This document shows positions 15,638-25,812 of a stretch of 26,988 nt of DNA, piece after piece. This DNA is from a virus. The stretch lies in the IMG/VR virus record IMGVR_UViG_3300030331_002773, positions 1 through 26,988 of that record. One strand, written 5' to 3'. Position 1 is the first letter of the stretch. Each line of letters begins with the position of its first letter. The notes under the pieces were generated by a model that did no database searches, was not told the origin of the DNA, and saw only the letters and a program-made list of their open reading frames with translations. The translations under genes and the position numbers were made by a program.

Positions 15638-16025
15638 TCACAAAAGCGACTACTGGTTGTATTGTAACACTACTTGCAGAATTAAACAACGGCTTTATCA
15701 TTCTTAACGCTTGTGGGTTAGATATTACGACTACTGCTGCCAACGCTCCGATAGCAGACCAAACTCTCCGTTCCAATACTGATAATCTTGCACGAATGAT
15801 GTCATGATCCCCGTCCATTTTATCACGGAGTTCGTCGATTTTAGTAAAGAGTATTCCGTCAATCTCTTCTTGCTTTGATATTTTCTCTTCATGGACTGCA
15901 AGCATCTTACTCACATTAGTATTTACCTCTGCAATTTTTTCGATTGCAGAATCAAGTTTGCCTACAAATTGTTCTAATACTTCTTGCTTCTGTTCTAGAA
16001 TGGCAACTTTTATTTCTTCATCCAT
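15624..16025 (-). CDS. Coiled-coil membrane protein, unknown function (133 aa)
   Basis: A 133-aa protein. Residues 1-85 are a long amphipathic, charged helix with heptad-like spacing (QKQEVLEQFVGKLDSAIEK and following), then a hydrophobic segment at about 88-103 (VWSAIGALAAVVVI) and a short external or periplasmic tail. The layout, coiled coil plus one C-terminal membrane span, recalls XhlA-type phage proteins and holin-associated proteins, but no sequence signature proves that. It overlaps the 66-aa gene by 8 bases and the primase by 14, so expression is coupled with both. Recognised as a cyanophage-type protein; function not known. Confidence 0.7.
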   Translation of the reverse strand: MDEEIKVAILEQKQEVLEQFVGKLDSAIEKIAEVNTNVSKMLAVHEEKISKQEEIDGILFTKIDELRDKMDGDHDIIRARLSVLERRVWSAIGALAAVVVISNPQALRMIKPLFNSASSVTIQPVVAFVNGSR

Positions 16026-16218
16026 CGCTTTCTAGATCCCCGGCCGAGACCGATAATTTTTTTTTTCTCCTCACTTTTCCCATTACGGGATCAAAACCTG
16101 CTGTTGGCCCTTTGGCATCTGCCTTAGAACTAAATCCTGGCTTTCCTGTGGTGCTACCAGTTGACATCATTTCTTCACGAATGATGCTGATAATCTTATC
16201 TAGCGGTGTTTTTTTCAT
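16018..16218 (-). CDS. Small basic conserved phage protein (66 aa)
   Basis: A 66-aa protein beginning MKKTPLDKIISIIREEMMS, an amphipathic helix, then a Gly/Ser/Thr-rich linker and GPTAGFDPVMGKVRRKKK, a phrase I associate with small marine phage proteins of unknown role. Strongly basic C-terminal half. It overlaps the 131-aa gene by 23 bases and the 133-aa gene by 8. No function can be named. Confidence 0.65.
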   Translation of the reverse strand: MKKTPLDKIISIIREEMMSTGSTTGKPGFSSKADAKGPTAGFDPVMGKVRRKKKLSVSAGDLESDG

Positions 16219-17438: not shown

Positions 17439-19751
17439 TCAGCAGTTCCAACGTCTTCTTGCTTGTCTTAATCTGCTGTTAGGATCTTTCGCTGCTTTTG
17501 GAAACTTCTTCATCTGCCCTGCACTTCTGGCACAATAACTCTTTCTTCTATTAGCAGCTTTACTACCTTTTTTAAGTTTAGATGGTTTTGTTGTCACTGC
17601 AGTTTTAAGTTTAGATCCGGGATTACGACGACGATATGCTTCCACACCTTTTTGTGTCATTCCAGCACCAGATTTTGTGGGTCTTTTGTGCCCTGACTTG
17701 ACACTCATACCCTTCATATCATCCTCGTAAACGTGCTCTACTTCTTCTTTCCTAGTTTTTTTTTTCTTTACGCAGTTTGGATATCTCTTTCCAAACATAG
17801 TCTTCATACCTTTCTTTTCATAACCAGGCCAACATTTCTCTTGAAACTGCATGAATGAGATACCATCTCTTTCAAACTCTTCTTTACGACTATTACCCCA
17901 GTTTGCAGCACCCACCTTACGACACTTGACTAATGCACCTGATGCGTATGCAGATGGCCACACAGAATATCTTGACTTAACCTTGTGATAGCAAGCATCT
18001 TTAGATCCACTACCCTTGCCTTTCTTGTCCTTTGCTTCATACTGTACCTCATCATTTAATTTATTTCCAACCATTGTGCCTCTTTTTGTTGGTTCAAACG
18101 GTTTTCTTTTAGGATTATTTTTTGCATATTCAGCATCTGCTTTCTTTCTTGCAGGTGTATTCAGGTACCCTCCCTGTTTTTTATACGAACCTACACCCCC
18201 ATCACCTCTGTCAACCATTTTCCCACCTACATTAACATATTTTTCACTCACCCCTGCTTTTCTTAATGTTTTTGCTTGTTTAGAATGCATTGCAACTGCC
18301 TTGTCAAGTTGTGCTGGAATTGCATTTGCTGCTTTTCCTGCATCTTTCTTTACCTCATCAGAGTCTCTTAATCTTTTTGCCTGACTCTTATGTAATGCAA
18401 CTGCTTTATCAAGTTCTGCTGGAATTTTATTTACAGATGCACCGTAATGTCTCTCCGAAAGTTTCTTTTTGTTTCTGAGATATGCTTGTAGGGTTGGATT
18501 CTTGGTTTTAACTTCCATACCAGCCCTCCTTGCTGCTTTGTTACCTGATCCCCTATCAGTTTCTGTAGGAATGTTTTTGATTGCTGCCTGTGCAGTAGGA
18601 GGATGAATTGATGCTAATTTTGCTTTTCTCGATACTCCTTTTCCACCGTATGCTTCGTTCATTTTCTTTTTGGGGTCAGTTGATACCATTGTGGGTTTTG
18701 CTGCACCTGTTTTTTGAGGTTGACCGGGATCAGCGGCCCTCTTTCTTCTTGCAGCACTGTCTCTTTCTTTGTCACTCATTGATCTTCTTTTTGCAGAAGA
18801 TACACATTTAGGGGTTGTTTTTTGTCCGGGTTGGCGAGCACATGGTTTCCCATCATACTTACCACCAACTTGAACCCATCCTCTAACTTTACGTCCTGAC
18901 TTGGTGGTTCCACTAGATTTACCAAACCAATCACGTAAACCCTCTTCACTCACATCTTTAGGTTTTTTACCCCTCTTTTTCATATTTATTGCAATCGCAG
19001 CTTGTTGAGCAGGGTTTGCTGCTTCATTCATCTTCTTAGTTTTCTTCTTCATCGTATTGATAAACTTACGATAAACGGCCGCTTCAGAGGTTTTACCCAT
19101 CTCTCTCGCCCTTTGTTCCATAGCAACAGCCGCTTGAATTTTATGAGCATGTGATCGAGAAGAATTCCTGATCTTTGAGACAGATGCTTTAGCAGTAGCC
19201 ACGTCCTTAAAACCAAGTCCATGTATAGTTCCTTTAGGATTTTCATCAGTATATAAATCGGAGTGTTTTTTAGATCCCGCTGGTTGACCGGGTTTTCGAG
19301 GAATACGAGGGTTTGATTCCTCTTTCATACCCTTACCATATGTCTTACATGGAGTCTGACCACAACCACAATTATTTTCTTTTACTTCCTTACTGTCAAG
19401 ATAATCTGCAGCAGTATCTAAGTAATCAGATGCCTTTGTTATCTTTGATTGAACCCATGCTTTAAAATTTTTCTTACTACGTGAATGTTTCTCAATTCTT
19501 TTTGATGCTCTACCAGCAGTTTTTAGTTGATTACGAATCATCTCTGGTTCATGATCACCATTTTTTTCTTCCTTTGTAACCTTTTTCTCAGGAAGACCCT
19601 TATGTTTTGTTGATGCAAACTTTTTTACATCACTCTTCTTCATATCTGCAGCTGCCTTTGCAGTCTCAGGTGTAGTCGGTGTTTGCTCACCCTTTTGAAT
19701 CGCACGGACGATTCCAAAAAACTTTTGTTGTTTCTTAGATAATGCTGGCAT
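17439..19751 (-). CDS. Very basic multi-module phage protein (770 aa)
   Basis: A Lys/Arg-rich protein built from short modules separated by disordered linkers, each of which I recognise from other marine phage proteins. Residues 1-57 (KKQQKFFGIVRAIQKG to FASTKHKGLP) are DUF3008-like. At 161-235 lies KKHSDLYTDENPKG to AHKIQAAVAMEQRA. At 271-345 is WFGKSS, a GWVQVGGKYDGKPCARQPG block with two Cys, and the SMSDKERDSAARRK segment. The 35-residue tandem repeats follow at 443-500. At 584-620 is DACYHKVKSRYSVWPSAYAS, and at 639-661 CWPGYEKKGMK to YPNCVKKK. The C-terminus (680-770) is DUF6321-like, ending DPNSRLRQARRRWNC. Paired Cys in most modules suggest metal binding. Its ATG overlaps the 685-aa stop (TAATG). 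A head-interior or DNA-binding role is possible; function unknown. Confidence 0.7.
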   Translation of the reverse strand: MPALSKKQQKFFGIVRAIQKGEQTPTTPETAKAAADMKKSDVKKFASTKHKGLPEKKVTKEEKNGDHEPEMIRNQLKTAGRASKRIEKHSRSKKNFKAWVQSKITKASDYLDTAADYLDSKEVKENNCGCGQTPCKTYGKGMKEESNPRIPRKPGQPAGSKKHSDLYTDENPKGTIHGLGFKDVATAKASVSKIRNSSRSHAHKIQAAVAMEQRAREMGKTSEAAVYRKFINTMKKKTKKMNEAANPAQQAAIAINMKKRGKKPKDVSEEGLRDWFGKSSGTTKSGRKVRGWVQVGGKYDGKPCARQPGQKTTPKCVSSAKRRSMSDKERDSAARRKRAADPGQPQKTGAAKPTMVSTDPKKKMNEAYGGKGVSRKAKLASIHPPTAQAAIKNIPTETDRGSGNKAARRAGMEVKTKNPTLQAYLRNKKKLSERHYGASVNKIPAELDKAVALHKSQAKRLRDSDEVKKDAGKAANAIPAQLDKAVAMHSKQAKTLRKAGVSEKYVNVGGKMVDRGDGGVGSYKKQGGYLNTPARKKADAEYAKNNPKRKPFEPTKRGTMVGNKLNDEVQYEAKDKKGKGSGSKDACYHKVKSRYSVWPSAYASGALVKCRKVGAANWGNSRKEEFERDGISFMQFQEKCWPGYEKKGMKTMFGKRYPNCVKKKKTRKEEVEHVYEDDMKGMSVKSGHKRPTKSGAGMTQKGVEAYRRRNPGSKLKTAVTTKPSKLKKGSKAANRRKSYCARSAGQMKKFPKAAKDPNSRLRQARRRWNC
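18252..18425 (-). repeat. 35-residue tandem repeat inside the 770-aa gene
   Basis: Residues 443-465 and 478-500 repeat the pattern IPAxLDKAVAxHxxQAKxLR with a 105-base period. The DNA copies (18425-18357 and 18320-18252) are similar but diverged, so the duplication is not recent. A degenerate third start, IPTETDRGSG, lies further upstream near residue 394. Confidence 0.7.
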
Positions 19752-21808
19752 TATTTTTTACCCACATCCATGATGGCACCTTTACCATACTTTTTCCTAA
19801 TATCTGCTTTTACAATGTCAAGTGCAGATCTACCCTTTGCTGCTTTTTGTGCAGCAGTCATGCCTTTTGATGGTTTTTCTGGTCTTCTTGGCATGGTTGT
19901 TGCATCTTTCTTATCAGGTGAACTTGGATCACCACCAGCCATTGCTATACGATCTTTATAATGATCATACTCCTCTTCTGGAATATAATCCTCTCTCGTT
20001 GTCATTGCCTTTGCTTTTTGTTTCACTCGATCACCAATTGATGTAGCAACCATTTTCATTCTCTTACCTGCTGAGTACGGATTTTCTTTTTGTTCCCTTC
20101 TCTTCGTTTCTGCCTTAATCGCAGACATCTTTAATTTATTTGAAATAGCACTACGTTTGCTACCCATTCTTGGCTTTGGATTTGTTTTATCAATCGCACG
20201 AGCAACTCTTAATCTTACACCAACTCTCGGATTACCATATTCATCAAGTTGTTCACCTTCTGGTTCATATTGATCAAGCATTTTTAAGGCATCACGAGTG
20301 CTTTTATTCATCAATCCAGTTCCACTTTTCTTTGCATCTTTAATTGCATTTACACCTCTTTGAAAGTTACTACCACCACTTGATGAGGAGGAATTTGAGG
20401 TTGCAGGAGATTTACTTAATGCTTGTTTTACTACTCTATTACCATGCATTGTGCCGAGTTTTGATGATATTCTTTGAGTTGCGAACGCAAGAGCCCCTAA
20501 ACCTGCTAATTTACCAAAAACTTCATCAACTTGTTCACCTTCTGGTTCATAAGATGCTGTAATATCCTCACCACCAGTTTGTCTTACTGCCTGTAATTTA
20601 CGAAGTAATACTTGTTTTTTTAATTGTCTCTGACGAAGTTGTTTTGATTTTAATTGTGGATCATCCTCTTTGGTTTCACCATTCATCTCAACAATCTCTA
20701 AAACTTCACCACCAATCTCCTCAACTGCCTCACCTAACTTTGGATTGATTATAATTTTATTCTTTACTTTCTTTTCTTTTACTTCTTTTTCCATCTGCTC
20801 TTCATCAGCTTCCCATACATAATCCTCTCTCCAATTAGAAAGTGCTTCCATTTTAACTTTTGTTTTCACACCACGTTTTGCCTTATGTTCTTCTCTCCTC
20901 TTGGTTATAAGTTCACCTCTTGTTGCATCTTTTGTAACCTTCTTTCCAGTCAATGGATCAGGTAACTCGCCAGATGTCCCAAACTTTCTTTTATTTCTGA
21001 TTGTTGCTTTACCATAAGTTGAAGCACCTGCCTCATACTTTGCTTCTAACTGTACCTCTTCTGCTCTTGATCTAGCAACAGCTGGGTCTTTACTATTAGG
21101 TGAAGTGCTATCAAAAGCGGGATTGTTTCTAGCAGCTTGAGATTGTGATGCTCTTTGTTTTTCTAGTTTCTTTGCTCTCTTATCAAGAAAATCTTTCATG
21201 ACACCAGATGGTTTGCCAGATCCTTTTGCCATACCTGTTTCAGCAAACGCTTCACCCATCTCTCTTTTCTTCTTCGCAACTTTAAGTGCCTGTAATCTAT
21301 CAAGAGCTGCACTTAACTTTGCTTTCTTCTTCATGTTAGATGGTCTCATTGATTGAGATACTGCTTCATCAACTTCCACTTCCTCTAATGATTCGTGAGT
21401 AAACTTCATGCCCTTAGTTGCTTTATCCTTAAGTGCCTGACGTTTCTTGGGATCCATATTCTTTTCATAGTTTGCCAACTTTTTAGCATAACTAGGATCA
21501 TCCATTTTTTTAATTAACTTTCTATCTCCTTTGTTAGGGCCTGTATATTCAACTCCTTCTCTTGCAGTTCTTGCAGCGTTTGCAAAATCTTGTGATGATG
21601 GTGCTCCTTTGTCACCTTTCTTTCTCATTTTACCACCACGTTTTCTCTTTGCATGAATGTTGGCATAAAGACCAGCACCCTCATCAACATCTTCACCTTC
21701 ATGAGGAATAGTATTACCATCTACGTCTTTCTTATGATGCTCACTGATCTGTGAAAGATAGACCTCAGATATCTTGTTTAATGGGTTTGGGGATATTCCT
21801 TGTGGCAT
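19751..21808 (-). CDS. Very basic low-complexity phage protein (685 aa)
   Basis: A Lys-rich, largely disordered protein with short recognisable blocks: GLYANIHAKRKRGGKMRKKG near residue 46 followed by KGAPSSQDFANAARTA (a block seen in phage and algal-virus proteins, perhaps DUF5872), MDDPSYAKKLANYEKNMD, and acidic VDEA-type spacers. Two YEPEGEQ(V/L)DE repeats are followed by FGKLAGLGALAF and YGNPRVGVRLRVARAI; the C-terminus is basic. Overlapping CATAAATA and AATAAATA octamers upstream (21837-21826) suggest late expression. It precedes the similar 770-aa gene with one-base overlap, so the two are probably co-produced. A virion-internal or DNA-binding function would fit charge and timing but is not shown. 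Confidence 0.65.
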   Translation of the reverse strand: MPQGISPNPLNKISEVYLSQISEHHKKDVDGNTIPHEGEDVDEGAGLYANIHAKRKRGGKMRKKGDKGAPSSQDFANAARTAREGVEYTGPNKGDRKLIKKMDDPSYAKKLANYEKNMDPKKRQALKDKATKGMKFTHESLEEVEVDEAVSQSMRPSNMKKKAKLSAALDRLQALKVAKKKREMGEAFAETGMAKGSGKPSGVMKDFLDKRAKKLEKQRASQSQAARNNPAFDSTSPNSKDPAVARSRAEEVQLEAKYEAGASTYGKATIRNKRKFGTSGELPDPLTGKKVTKDATRGELITKRREEHKAKRGVKTKVKMEALSNWREDYVWEADEEQMEKEVKEKKVKNKIIINPKLGEAVEEIGGEVLEIVEMNGETKEDDPQLKSKQLRQRQLKKQVLLRKLQAVRQTGGEDITASYEPEGEQVDEVFGKLAGLGALAFATQRISSKLGTMHGNRVVKQALSKSPATSNSSSSSGGSNFQRGVNAIKDAKKSGTGLMNKSTRDALKMLDQYEPEGEQLDEYGNPRVGVRLRVARAIDKTNPKPRMGSKRSAISNKLKMSAIKAETKRREQKENPYSAGKRMKMVATSIGDRVKQKAKAMTTREDYIPEEEYDHYKDRIAMAGGDPSSPDKKDATTMPRRPEKPSKGMTAAQKAAKGRSALDIVKADIRKKYGKGAIMDVGKK
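20240..20551 (-). repeat. 30-base direct repeat inside the 685-aa gene
   Basis: The segments 20240-20269 and 20522-20551 are identical except for one base (C or G at the ninth position) and encode the YEPEGEQ(V/L)DE motif. The offset is 282 bases, a whole number of codons. Near identity at DNA level suggests a recent duplication or gene conversion of this acidic spacer. Confidence 0.75.
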
Positions 21809-21809
21809 G

Positions 21810-23090
21810 TCACTTTTTTAGTCTGTATTTATTTATGAACTCCTTAATATCAAAGTTCTGTATTTTCTTCATACCCATCTTATCCATGACGTTTTTACGG
21901 TAGCCACTGGTGCCGATCAAGTAATTTGGATGAGTTTTATCTCTCATTCGACGGCTCATCTTAACTTCTGTGTACTCCATGACATCTTTGATCCATGATT
22001 TAAACATATGATTCTCTTCTGTTACACAAATAAGGTGATTTGTACCTCTTCTTATAATTTTACCGATCAATCCTGTATTAAGATTCTCAATCACATCACC
22101 GATACGATATAGTTTTCCTGTGACATATTGTTCTCTTAATCCTCTTGCATCATACTTCGGAGCAATTTGCCATAACTCAGTAACCGATGTTTTCTTCAAC
22201 TTCATACCAGATCTCACTGCGTTGAATATTGATTGAATGTCATCATCTTTTATATTCTTCGGTGTTCCACTCTTAAATGCTTTGAAATTACCATCAACAA
22301 CTGCTTTTCTCATCTTAGATGCAGACATTCCCTCCACACCTTCGGCATCTGCATCACGAATACCAGCAGATACAACACGTATATCTTTAAAATTATATAA
22401 TTCACCATTATATTTTGTAGCAAGATTCTCAAATTCAGCCTGACGATCTGCTCCTACAACAATATTCACATTGTCATATCCCTCTTCATCTGCTGCGATT
22501 AATACATTGAATATTGATTTCATCTCACCATCATTTATAATGTTATCTTCAAAATCTGGGAATAGTTTTTTCATAAATGATATTTTCATATCAGGATCAA
22601 GTGGATTCTTCTTAGAATCTTGTGTTCTTGACGGATATATCTTAAGTGGGCCGCCCATTGCAACCTTATCTGCTGCCTTCATTAATTTCTCATGACCAAT
22701 TGTAGGTGGATTAAATCTACCAAATGCAACTGTGATCGTATCACTCTCTGCCTGATCAACTTCATCAGGTTTTTTTGTTCCCTCTGGTGTTTTTAAATCT
22801 GGATCTTTTGTCTTTGTTGCTTTTGGATCTTCTAATTGCTTTGGGGATATCTTTCTCTTGATTGGTTCTGGTGCTGGTCTTCTCTTTGCCTCTGGTTCTT
22901 CCTCTGCCTTCTTACCTCTTCCTTTAAAAAATACTAACTTGCCTTTCTCAGTTTTTGCCACATATTTTCCAGTACGATCCGTCCATCCACCATGACCGTC
23001 ACTTGTAAGTTGTAATCTCTTTGCTTGTGCGGCCGCTTGTGATGTCTCTGCTTCAACTAAAAACTGGGAAAATCCTTTCATATTAGGCAT
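21810..23090 (-). CDS. HIGH-family nucleotidyltransferase with N-terminal capsid-targeting-like peptide
   Basis: A 426-aa multidomain protein. Residues 4-14 (MKGFSQFLVEA) resemble the T4 internal-protein capsid-targeting peptide MKTYQEFIAEA, with a gp21-type cleavage site LVE/A after Glu13. Residues 30-60 hold DGHGGWTDRTGKYVAKTEKG. The catalytic domain (about 115-300) has GRFNPPTIGHEKL (T/HxGH nucleotide motif), VVGADRQAEF and MSASKMRKAV (the ISSTxxR-like motif), as in cytidylyl- and NMN-adenylyltransferases. A C-terminal SH3/KOW-like segment (325-372) reads YRIGDVIENLNTG to FKSWIKDV. Starts at 23090 or 23081 are both possible; neither has a good ribosome-binding site. The substrate is unknown. 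Late context and the peptide suggest packaging in the head and delivery to the host. Confidence 0.78.
   Translation of the reverse strand: MPNMKGFSQFLVEAETSQAAAQAKRLQLTSDGHGGWTDRTGKYVAKTEKGKLVFFKGRGKKAEEEPEAKRRPAPEPIKRKISPKQLEDPKATKTKDPDLKTPEGTKKPDEVDQAESDTITVAFGRFNPPTIGHEKLMKAADKVAMGGPLKIYPSRTQDSKKNPLDPDMKISFMKKLFPDFEDNIINDGEMKSIFNVLIAADEEGYDNVNIVVGADRQAEFENLATKYNGELYNFKDIRVVSAGIRDADAEGVEGMSASKMRKAVVDGNFKAFKSGTPKNIKDDDIQSIFNAVRSGMKLKKTSVTELWQIAPKYDARGLREQYVTGKLYRIGDVIENLNTGLIGKIIRRGTNHLICVTEENHMFKSWIKDVMEYTEVKMSRRMRDKTHPNYLIGTSGYRKNVMDKMGMKKIQNFDIKEFINKYRLKK
21826..21837 (-). promoter_or_regulatory. Overlapping late promoter octamers upstream of the 685-aa gene
   Basis: The minus strand reads CATAAATAAATA, which contains CATAAATA (21837-21830) and AATAAATA (21833-21826), both matching NATAAATA. 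They lie within the last codons of the nucleotidyltransferase gene, 18-29 bases before the ATG at 21808. The predicted start leaves a leader of about 12-15 bases. Confidence 0.45.
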
Positions 23091-24879: not shown

Positions 24880-25812
24880 TTACATTCCTCTATCTGCCAT
24901 GAACTTCTTGAAAGCAGGAGAGTTGATCCCTCTCTTAGGATCTCTCATTCTAGCAGCTCTTGATCTCTGTCTATAAGGTTTATCAGATTCGTCTGGATCT
25001 TTATGCTTTTCAGGTTCCATGGCGACTTGTCTGTTTTCCTCAAACTCACCCCAAAGAATACCAGTTATTTCTTCCTCATTAAAGAAACCAGATTTAATTA
25101 ATGCATCTACATTTTCTTTTGTAATTTTCTTAGCAGCACGAGCGATCCCTTGCTCACGCTTATCCAATTTCTTATCTTCTTTTTCATCAGCCTCATCAGG
25201 ATCATACTTTCTTTTTTCACTATCGCCCTGATCAAATCTTCTATCAGCAAGATCTTTTGATGCCTTTGCTATATAAGAACCCATTGTGGTTTTTTTAAGT
25301 TCACCAAGATAAGCATTGACATAATTATATTCTGTTTCTTCTTTCTTCTCTTTTGCTGCCTTCTTCATAGGTTCTTTCTTGTCACCATCTTTATCTAAGT
25401 CAAGAAAGTCTGGTTTTGATCCTTTTGATCCATTACCATTACCATTACCATGATCCTTGCCATTGCCATGATCCTTTCCGTTACCATTATCTTCTTTCTT
25501 GTCACCGTTACCTTTCTTTCCTTTCTTTTTATCAATATAGGCTTGAAGTCCTGCAGGTATTTTACCTTCATCCAATCTTCTTAATTCCTGTAAGGTTTCA
25601 TCAATTATTGCAATGAGTTCTTCCTCGTATGCCTCTTTGAGATGATCTGCCATCTCATAAAGCATTTCGCCAGTTGACTCGTTTACTTTAAACCTATTTT
25701 GCCATGCGGGTGTATTTCCAACCTTGTCTGCATTCGTTAGCAAATATCTGCCGTCGTTCATGGAAGCATACGCTGCTGCCAAACCGGTCATATCATCATT
25801 GAATAATCCCAT
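24880..25812 (-). CDS. Lys/Asp-rich modular phage protein, probable late gene (310 aa)
   Basis: A 310-aa protein. Residues 1-80 look folded and helical (YEMADHLKEAYEEELIAIID). Residues 84-95 GKIPAGLQAYID lead into a Lys/Gly/Asn/His low-complexity linker (about 98-130, with GKDHGN repeats). DLDKDGDKKEP (138-148) resembles a calcium-binding Asp loop as in EF-hands or dockerins. Then come LGELKKTTMGSYIAKASKD (169-187), a basic helical segment and a C-terminal SPAFKKFMADRGM. These modules recur in other cyanophage proteins. A late octamer lies 30 bases upstream. The product is likely a virion or assembly protein, but no family function is known. A possible protease site (LDE/G) precedes the linker. 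Confidence 0.68.
   Translation of the reverse strand: MGLFNDDMTGLAAAYASMNDGRYLLTNADKVGNTPAWQNRFKVNESTGEMLYEMADHLKEAYEEELIAIIDETLQELRRLDEGKIPAGLQAYIDKKKGKKGNGDKKEDNGNGKDHGNGKDHGNGNGNGSKGSKPDFLDLDKDGDKKEPMKKAAKEKKEETEYNYVNAYLGELKKTTMGSYIAKASKDLADRRFDQGDSEKRKYDPDEADEKEDKKLDKREQGIARAAKKITKENVDALIKSGFFNEEEITGILWGEFEENRQVAMEPEKHKDPDESDKPYRQRSRAARMRDPKRGINSPAFKKFMADRGM
25419..25475 (-). repeat. Gly-Asn-Lys-Asp-His low-complexity repeat in the 310-aa gene
   Basis: Imperfect short repeats of the codons for Gly-Asn-Gly and Lys-Asp-His give the peptide pattern GNGKDHGNGKDHGNGNGNG. On the plus strand this appears as repeated CCATTACCATTA and CCATGATCCTT units. Such tracts expand and contract easily by slippage, so linker length probably varies among relatives. 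Confidence 0.7.

Follow-up and report, generated by a model that had tools for sequence, protein, structure and literature searches.

The window analysed here covers 26,988 nucleotides (positions 1 to 26,988) of the 27,270-base virus record IMGVR_UViG_3300030331_002773. It derives from a marine cyanobacterium-infecting virus with the gene order of T4-like cyanomyoviruses, and it contains two adjacent genes for large modular proteins, here called A and B. Along the window lie a gp41-type helicase, MazG, several unknown genes, a cytidyltransferase, B, A, small genes, primase, nrdA, nrdB and sugar genes; P-SSM4 shows the same order, including the cytidyltransferase (T4-GC190) and a relative of A (T4-GC119). 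Protein A (17439..19751, minus strand, as for all window features located below) has 770 amino acids (aa), 12 modules (A1-A12) and 11 Cys, and protein B (19751..21808) has 685 aa, 10 modules (B1-B10) and no Cys. Both open reading frames (ORFs), which a preliminary description of the sequence had singled out as basic proteins, are real, with net charges of +112 (A) and +47 (B). The stop codon of B overlaps the start codon of A, and B starts one base downstream of the stop codon of the cytidyltransferase, a protein of T4-GC190 type resembling nicotinamide mononucleotide adenylyltransferase (NMNAT; 21810..23090), whose family is virion-borne in S-SM1, S-CREM2 and S-SCSM1. Two overlapping late-promoter-like ATAAATA boxes stand just upstream of B (21826..21836). 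The late octamers announced before the gene pair were thus found for B, but none of the eight ATAAATA of the window, all on the coding strand, lies directly before A. As a statement about the whole window, late promoter enrichment is ruled out, with 8 ATAAATA cores observed against 12 expected from shuffling.

The module edges were drawn by eye. In A, the series begins with a DUF3008-like module A1 (19581..19751, aa 1-57) and continues with A2 (19392..19556, aa 66-120), A3 (19317..19373, aa 127-145, three Cys), the predicted helical A4 (19044..19313, aa 147-236), A5 (18945..19019, aa 245-269) and A6 (18675..18938, aa 272-359, two Cys, a predicted small alpha/beta unit). Then come A7 (18465..18650, aa 368-429), A8 (18276..18449, aa 435-492, with an internal tandem repeat), A9 (18063..18194, aa 520-563), the almost invariant A10 (17883..18029, aa 575-623, two Cys), A11 (17763..17840, aa 638-663, two Cys, a predicted beta hairpin) and, at the C-terminus, the DUF6321 module A12 (17442..17666, aa 696-770, two Cys). 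In B, the order is B1 (21689-21748), B2 (21587-21673), B3 (21392-21550), B4 (21245-21382), B5 (21092-21235), B6 (20864-21034), the acidic B7 (20525..20830, aa 327-428), B8 (20240-20521), B9 (19973-20206) and B10 (19766-19867). The paired Cys attributed to the blocks of both proteins are therefore a property of A, not of B, while the Lys/Glu-rich and VDEA-type spacers between modules are real and commoner than chance.

Only part of the family names first proposed for these blocks could be retained. DUF6321 matches A12 (aa 696-768) with 39.2 bits against a gathering cut-off of 28.5 and was found in 14 of 14 aligned relatives. DUF3008 scores 15.8 bits on A1 (aa 3-57), under its cut-off of 24; since the alignment is full-length and N-terminal, we call this module DUF3008-like. 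DUF5872 gave no match at E <= 1 in A, B or the aligned relatives. No enzyme family of Pfam or NCBIfam was detected above cut-off in either protein, NCBIfam gave no match, and the weak Pfam hits EHN, MMPL, FANCAA and CaATP_NAI, all below their cut-offs, were taken as chance. In PHROGs, pieces of A and B match families of unknown function (best for A: phrog_727). AlphaFold models (mean predicted local distance difference test, pLDDT, of 58 for A4-A6 and 54 for A10-A12) suggest, at low confidence, small ordered units joined by disordered stretches. A Foldseek search of the PDB with the A4-A6 model had no match at E <= 0.001, a designed filament (0.59) ranking first and ferritin-like helices next, and PDB sequence profiles gave none for A4-A6 and E of about 0.5 at best for A10-A12. 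Because of the low pLDDT and the lack of a Foldseek match at that threshold, no fold is claimed.

The 22 seeds (12 from A, 10 from B) were used in iterated hidden Markov model searches against all ORFs of 173 sources including the window; MAFFT alignments in which every module was set as a fragment row under the complete A and B came out misaligned and were left unused. At least one module was found in 277 ORFs (230 distinct) from 166 of the 173 sources, with relatives extending to Pelagibacter, Roseobacter and Methylophilales phages. The distinct ORFs show 114 architectures, and the 189 that carry at least two modules do so in 105 different orders, which bears out the proposal that the modules are widely shared outside the pair. 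Most modules recur with other partners and in other orders; A9, B4 and B8 are rare, with 4-5 matches each (4 for A9). Two modules favour the chain ends: 73 of the 82 A1 hits stand at the N-terminus and 69 of the 83 A12 hits at the C-terminus. As had also been predicted, some blocks stand alone elsewhere: DUF6321, DUF3008, B2 and B10 in ORFs of at most 160 aa, and A10 in proteins of 47-85 aa from several contigs of marine metagenome-assembled genomes (MAGs), with a short acidic N-terminal stretch in some but not in others. Architecture differs in 72 of 78 nonredundant multi-module ORFs, and, over ten module pairs, the identity of one module says almost nothing about that of another in the same proteins (Spearman -0.08 to 0.49), with many pairs sharing at least 95% identity in one module and less than 75% in the other. 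Module exchange is therefore real, as the preliminary description had supposed, whereas the recombination hot spot that it suggested would go beyond these data.

The modules are maintained by strong purifying selection. The ratio of nonsynonymous to synonymous differences (pN/pS) was 0.06-0.23 in the eight A-type modules measured (0.07 in A4, 0.06 in A11) and 0.18-0.35 in B3, B5, B6 and B9, with 0.63 for B10. Median pS reached 0.42-0.85 (0.20 for B10 alone, from 6 pairs), and such large synonymous differences indicate that module sharing does not result from recent copying. Of the DNA-condensing role that the preliminary description had suggested, only the charge fits, and this selection suggests a role more specific than bulk charge. 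The conservation of the individual modules and their lone forms indicate that each of them has a specific role of its own.

Several further occurrences of the modules deserve mention. Two bacterial MAG contigs (L196:4054-4461 and L197:6213-6482) encode an A6-like module in circularly permuted form, with the Cys/SMSK half first and the LRDWF half last, adjoining a lone A10. A 335-kb contig binned as Neomarinimicrobiota (L186), jumbo-phage-like with its phage DNA polymerase and protease genes, carries a cytidyltransferase followed by lone A10 and A11/A6 genes, and the C-terminal part of this cytidyltransferase weakly matches phrog_727. A Myxococcales-binned contig carries a DUF6321 gene and an A10 gene, each a single module, next to each other and without linkers (L192:5602-6153); five of the larger ORFs of that contig had no Pfam match at 0.001. 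Finally, a 2.85-Mb contig titled WOR-3 chromosome encodes a 408-aa protein with an A10-like module and Cys-rich blocks (L194:5782-7008).

The joints between modules carry a motif of the prohead protease type. In T4, this protease (gp21) follows an L/I-x-E rule, with the cut behind the Glu (PMC9026906). The [LIVMF]-x-E sites of A number ten (17724..19589; E at aa 55, 125, 144, 243, 269, 366, 433, 503, 638 and 676), and all of them fall into joint zones, so that 10 of the 11 joints carry one site each; these zones cover 188 of 770 aa, and 3 of 770 circular shifts were equally good. A hydrophobic residue stands at -2 of 10 of the 24 joint Glu and of none of the 17 module Glu. Pooling the 78 nonredundant multi-module ORFs, in which the proteins of the window are included through identical copies, gave the same picture (200 of 501 joint versus 151 of 925 module Glu, odds ratio 3.4, p 2.5e-22). 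The enrichment peaks at -2, has no equivalent when D or K replaces Glu, and does not extend to Y or W. In the linkers of these ORFs, L, I, V, M or F was counted two residues before Glu 504 times against 325 expected, and Ala directly after Glu 172 times against 115, Ala at other offsets being not above expectation. Within linkers of at most 40 aa, [LIVM]xEA occurs 35 times against 3.0 expected, altered motifs giving 0.3-2.2 fold, while the non-virion proteins of S-CREM2 (34 against 27.2) and other virion proteins (16 against 16.7) show no excess; S-CREM2 gp22 has 10 [LIVM]xE[AGST] against 3.0. When one linker was kept per joint type (65 types), a site was present in 42, compared with 17.3 after shuffling (at most 27 among 500 shuffles), and [LIVMF]xEA was found 12 times against 1.4. 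The commonest form is MNEA (18 cases); without Met, [LIV]xEA still occurs 17 times against 2.4, and the signal is also kept in distinct linkers only. In SSCSM1_29, an A-type chain of S-SCSM1, 8 of 10 sites lie outside modules and one at the first residue of A11.

Relatives of A are virion proteins in other phages. The check covered three cyanophages with virion mass spectrometry (MS), namely S-CREM2, S-SCSM1 and S-SM1; S-CREM1, for which 14 virion proteins are reported, was left out of the counts, being represented by one 50-kb stretch with no virion marks. All five genes matching A encode virion proteins (2 of 2 in S-CREM2, 2 of 2 in S-SCSM1, 1 of 1 in S-SM1, the last through an annotation tag). 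For S-CREM2, where 218 of 219 coding sequences (CDS) were translated (gp85 left out), the modules occur in gp160 (A6-A11-A10) and gp137 (A12) only. The published virion table lists both, with 7 peptides and 13.1% for gp160 (Table 3, PMC10665884) and 4 peptides for gp137 (PMC10665884); with 51 of the 218 proteins in the virion, the Fisher p is 0.054 on small numbers. In S-SCSM1, for which 45 virion proteins were reported by MS, 13 of them of unknown function, virion status was taken from the record annotation over the stretch 36001-100000. The chain SSCSM1_29 (A6-A10-A11-A12), the 69-aa lone DUF3008 protein SSCSM1_93 (L198:41626-41835), the NMNAT SSCSM1_91 and SSCSM1_92 are all annotated as virion proteins, and the neighbours _94, _96 and _30 are not so marked. 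A search of the whole S-SCSM1 record with A matched _29 and _93 only, and the search with B gave nothing at E 0.01; the identification of SSCSM1_92 as counterpart of B therefore rests on its place directly behind the NMNAT gene and on its B7 match (30.8 bits). We also noticed that SSCSM1_93 ends in TFKEFLEYIE, which resembles a capsid-targeting sequence at the C-terminus.

For S-SM1, 41 virion proteins are known and the nine newly detected ones are named (PMC3037559). In the S-SM2 record, 18 CDS are annotated as 'similar to Synechococcus phage S-SM1 protein', and each encodes a virion-type or hypothetical protein (gp3, 4, 6, 13, 14, 15, 18-21, 23, 25, 53, VrlC, PA14, GC15, GC190 and GC119, the relative of A); this tag is absent from orthologous replication genes and from gp16, gp17 and gp22, but also from gp8 and gp26. 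We infer that the tag marks an orthologue found in the S-SM1 virion. This reading fits the nine named S-SM1 proteins: seven of them have a gene-cluster partner in S-SM2, and every one of these seven S-SM2 genes is tagged. Taken through these relatives, the virion location of A-type proteins is well supported. An interior rather than a surface position, as proposed in the preliminary description, is presumed; location in the head as such is supported by the MS of relatives and by the head-targeting-like N-termini of the operon.

These N-termini are clearest in the cytidyltransferase, which starts with MPNMKGFSQFLVE followed by AET (23037..23090), a start like the T4 capsid-targeting sequence. 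Among its relatives, 29 of 33 distinct N-termini fit K.[FLYM]..[FLYW][LIVMF].E (of the four exceptions, two are truncated ORFs), and a module ORF follows directly downstream in 56 of 58 cases. B begins with an amphipathic helix ending in I-S-E, related to the targeting sequence but not of the T4 pattern. In T4 itself, the first ten residues of IPIII direct the protein into the head (PMC9026906). The strict form of the pattern picks out S-CREM2 gp6, 13, 14 and 154, all of them virion proteins (p 0.003). In that phage, capsid-targeting-like N-termini were observed on gp6, gp12 (LRFASFMAEA), gp13 and gp14, respectively a SAM (S-adenosylmethionine) hydrolase, a Cas9-like nuclease, a small protein and a kinase-like protein, all present in virions, and the motif may therefore predict packaged cargo. 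The prohead protease gp21 is encoded by S-SM1, S-SM2, S-CREM2 and S-SCSM1 and was found in 7 of 18 module-bearing records, mostly fragments; the record of the window is too short to show it.

Two further proteins of the window can be placed beside these. A 66-aa protein (16018..16218) imitates the N-terminal arm of mature gp23 (phrog_696, major head protein, E 8e-9), and its S-SCSM1 counterpart _97 is a virion protein. The imitation (..G[YF][TS]..AG[YF]DPVL..) is seen in these two, in S-SM2_108, in S-SM1_197 and in S-CREM2 gp160, where it is fused to modules. It fits the gp23 of its own phage best in 3 of 5 phages, so that strict co-evolution is not claimed; perhaps it is a capsid-binding tag or decoy. 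Four genes upstream of B, a 310-aa protein (24880-25812) preceded by a TATAAATA box also looks modular, and by eye the N-terminal part of the S-SCSM1 virion protein _89 is similar to it.

We consider it somewhat probable that A and B are late, head-packaged precursors comparable to the T4 internal proteins and cut between modules. The chains of A and B would be expressed late, and an N-terminal element would bring each chain into the prohead core (DUF3008 in A, the I-S-E helix in B, the classic targeting sequence in the cytidyltransferase). The phage's gp21-type prohead protease would then cut inside the prohead, after the Glu of [LIVMF]-x-E between modules, and free small, mostly basic mini-proteins, which would stay with the packaged DNA and probably be ejected along with it. 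Modules could be swapped without a new gene or targeting signal, because every module would be framed by such joints. As for what the modules do, host-directed or DNA-protecting cargo comes first, at close to an even chance; DNA packing is a tentative second, and a chopped-up scaffold is a doubtful third.

Several observations weigh against this interpretation. The joint A9/A10 has no site, in B the joint zones hold 7 of the 16 sites, which 35 of 685 shifts also reach, six sites lie inside B7 as an exception to the joint rule, and SSCSM1_29 has one inside A12. The module edges and the 3-aa padding of the joint zones were chosen by the analyst, the padding after the site positions had been seen. 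A hydrophobic residue at +2 of Glu is enriched too, and in short linkers M or V at P3 is more enriched than the T4-type L or I ([LI]xE[AGS] 12 against 4.5, MxE[AGS] 23 against 1.7). A has no classic targeting sequence and starts with its DUF3008-like module, and a looser targeting pattern also catches the non-virion S-CREM2 proteins gp44, gp91 and gp175. Co-purification in MS is no proof of an interior position, and no cleaved fragment or neo-terminus was seen. The suggestion of polyproteins cut at L-x-E gains strong joint-specific statistics from A and the pooled relatives, but B taken alone is weak and P3 is more often V or M than L or I.

The strongest alternative, which we nonetheless regard as unlikely, is that the chains are packaged whole, as uncut, flexible, basic virion proteins that coat or condense DNA, the acidic joints merely spacing the modules. 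Virion membership, charge and the low-confidence AlphaFold picture of ordered units between disordered stretches would suit it, but it leaves unexplained why an aliphatic residue stands exactly at -2 and Ala at +1 of the joint Glu, why D or K has no effect and why Y and W are not enriched; moreover, the chains include the acidic B7, and bulk charge would not require so strong a purifying selection. A role as prohead core (scaffold) proteins, standing in for T4 gp67/gp68, chopped by gp21 and mostly expelled before packaging, is considerably less probable. Many sites per chain, as in gp22, would agree with it, and cutting of core proteins of this kind is described in a T4 review (PMC9026906). 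However, module peptides remain in purified virions, the sites of A avoid modules, unlike those of a chopped scaffold, and the modules, besides their strong conservation, are also found as proteins of their own. Very improbable is a joint motif without protease role, as a relic of gene fusion (old ribosome-binding sites or start codons, such as the M of MNEA) or of shared spacer descent: MNEA is indeed the commonest form and M the residue most enriched at P3, but the signal persists without M, when each joint type is represented by a single linker, and when only distinct linkers are counted.

Cutting between modules, favoured here, would find partial precedents. T4 IPI-IPIII and Alt are head-internal, targeted by a capsid-targeting sequence and cut by gp21; like A and B, they are basic, late, head-associated and a variable cargo, and their L/I-x-E rule has a putative counterpart in the joint motif. 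They differ in that T4 has one small gene per protein with one or few cuts, whereas here up to a dozen modules share a chain; the start resembling the capsid-targeting sequence is found here on the upstream cytidyltransferase and not on A, and no common Pfam family was found between the T4 internal proteins and A or B. The polyvalent proteins (phage P1 DarA/DdrB; PMC5512222) likewise combine many domains per chain with extensive shuffling, and some are head-packaged and cut; their domains are largely enzymes or nucleic-acid binders, often with their own peptidase, and their paucity in cyanobacteria is reported (PMC5512222). In contrast, the modules of A and B are tiny and belong to no known enzyme family, and cutting would be done by gp21 in trans. 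The inner-body proteins of phiKZ and SPN3US are head-internal and cut after Glu by a gp21 relative (PMC9026906); these cuts remove propeptides, and the accessible part of that review mentions no string of interchangeable modules. The orthologous group of A, T4-GC119 or phrog_727 (Sullivan 2010, PMC3037559), a virion protein by its tag, has so far been treated as one hypothetical protein, the available sections of that paper describing neither its modular make-up nor the joint motif. Virion-borne NMNAT is already published (PMC10665884). A literature search that covered few subscription journals found no paper on DUF3008 or DUF6321 and, for DUF5872, an algal-virus gene table only; on a phage polyprotein cut by the prohead protease, or a cyanophage polyprotein, nothing was on topic among the titles and abstract starts listed. 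We therefore regard the joint-specific motif as new, and A and B would constitute a new form of head-internal cargo.

These results assign a place in the virion, and probably in the head, to DUF3008, DUF6321 and about twenty modules without a name, all of them frequent in marine phages. We put forward, more tentatively, that marine T4-like cyanophages make true polyproteins, in which one late transcript would yield chains of some ten mini-proteins each. Such a chain would enter the prohead as a single cargo and be split there by the prohead protease, the modules being plug-in cassettes with the protease site as their joint. If so, any module from any marine phage could be inserted and would still be packaged and delivered, with DUF3008 and DUF6321 as two examples of this cargo. 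Should the cutting prove real, it would represent a polyprotein strategy of phages in which the head protease does the processing, and the joint motif together with a targeting N-terminus would provide a sequence rule to predict packaged, probably injected cyanophage cargo, which bears on the takeover of Synechococcus and Prochlorococcus by abundant cyanophages.

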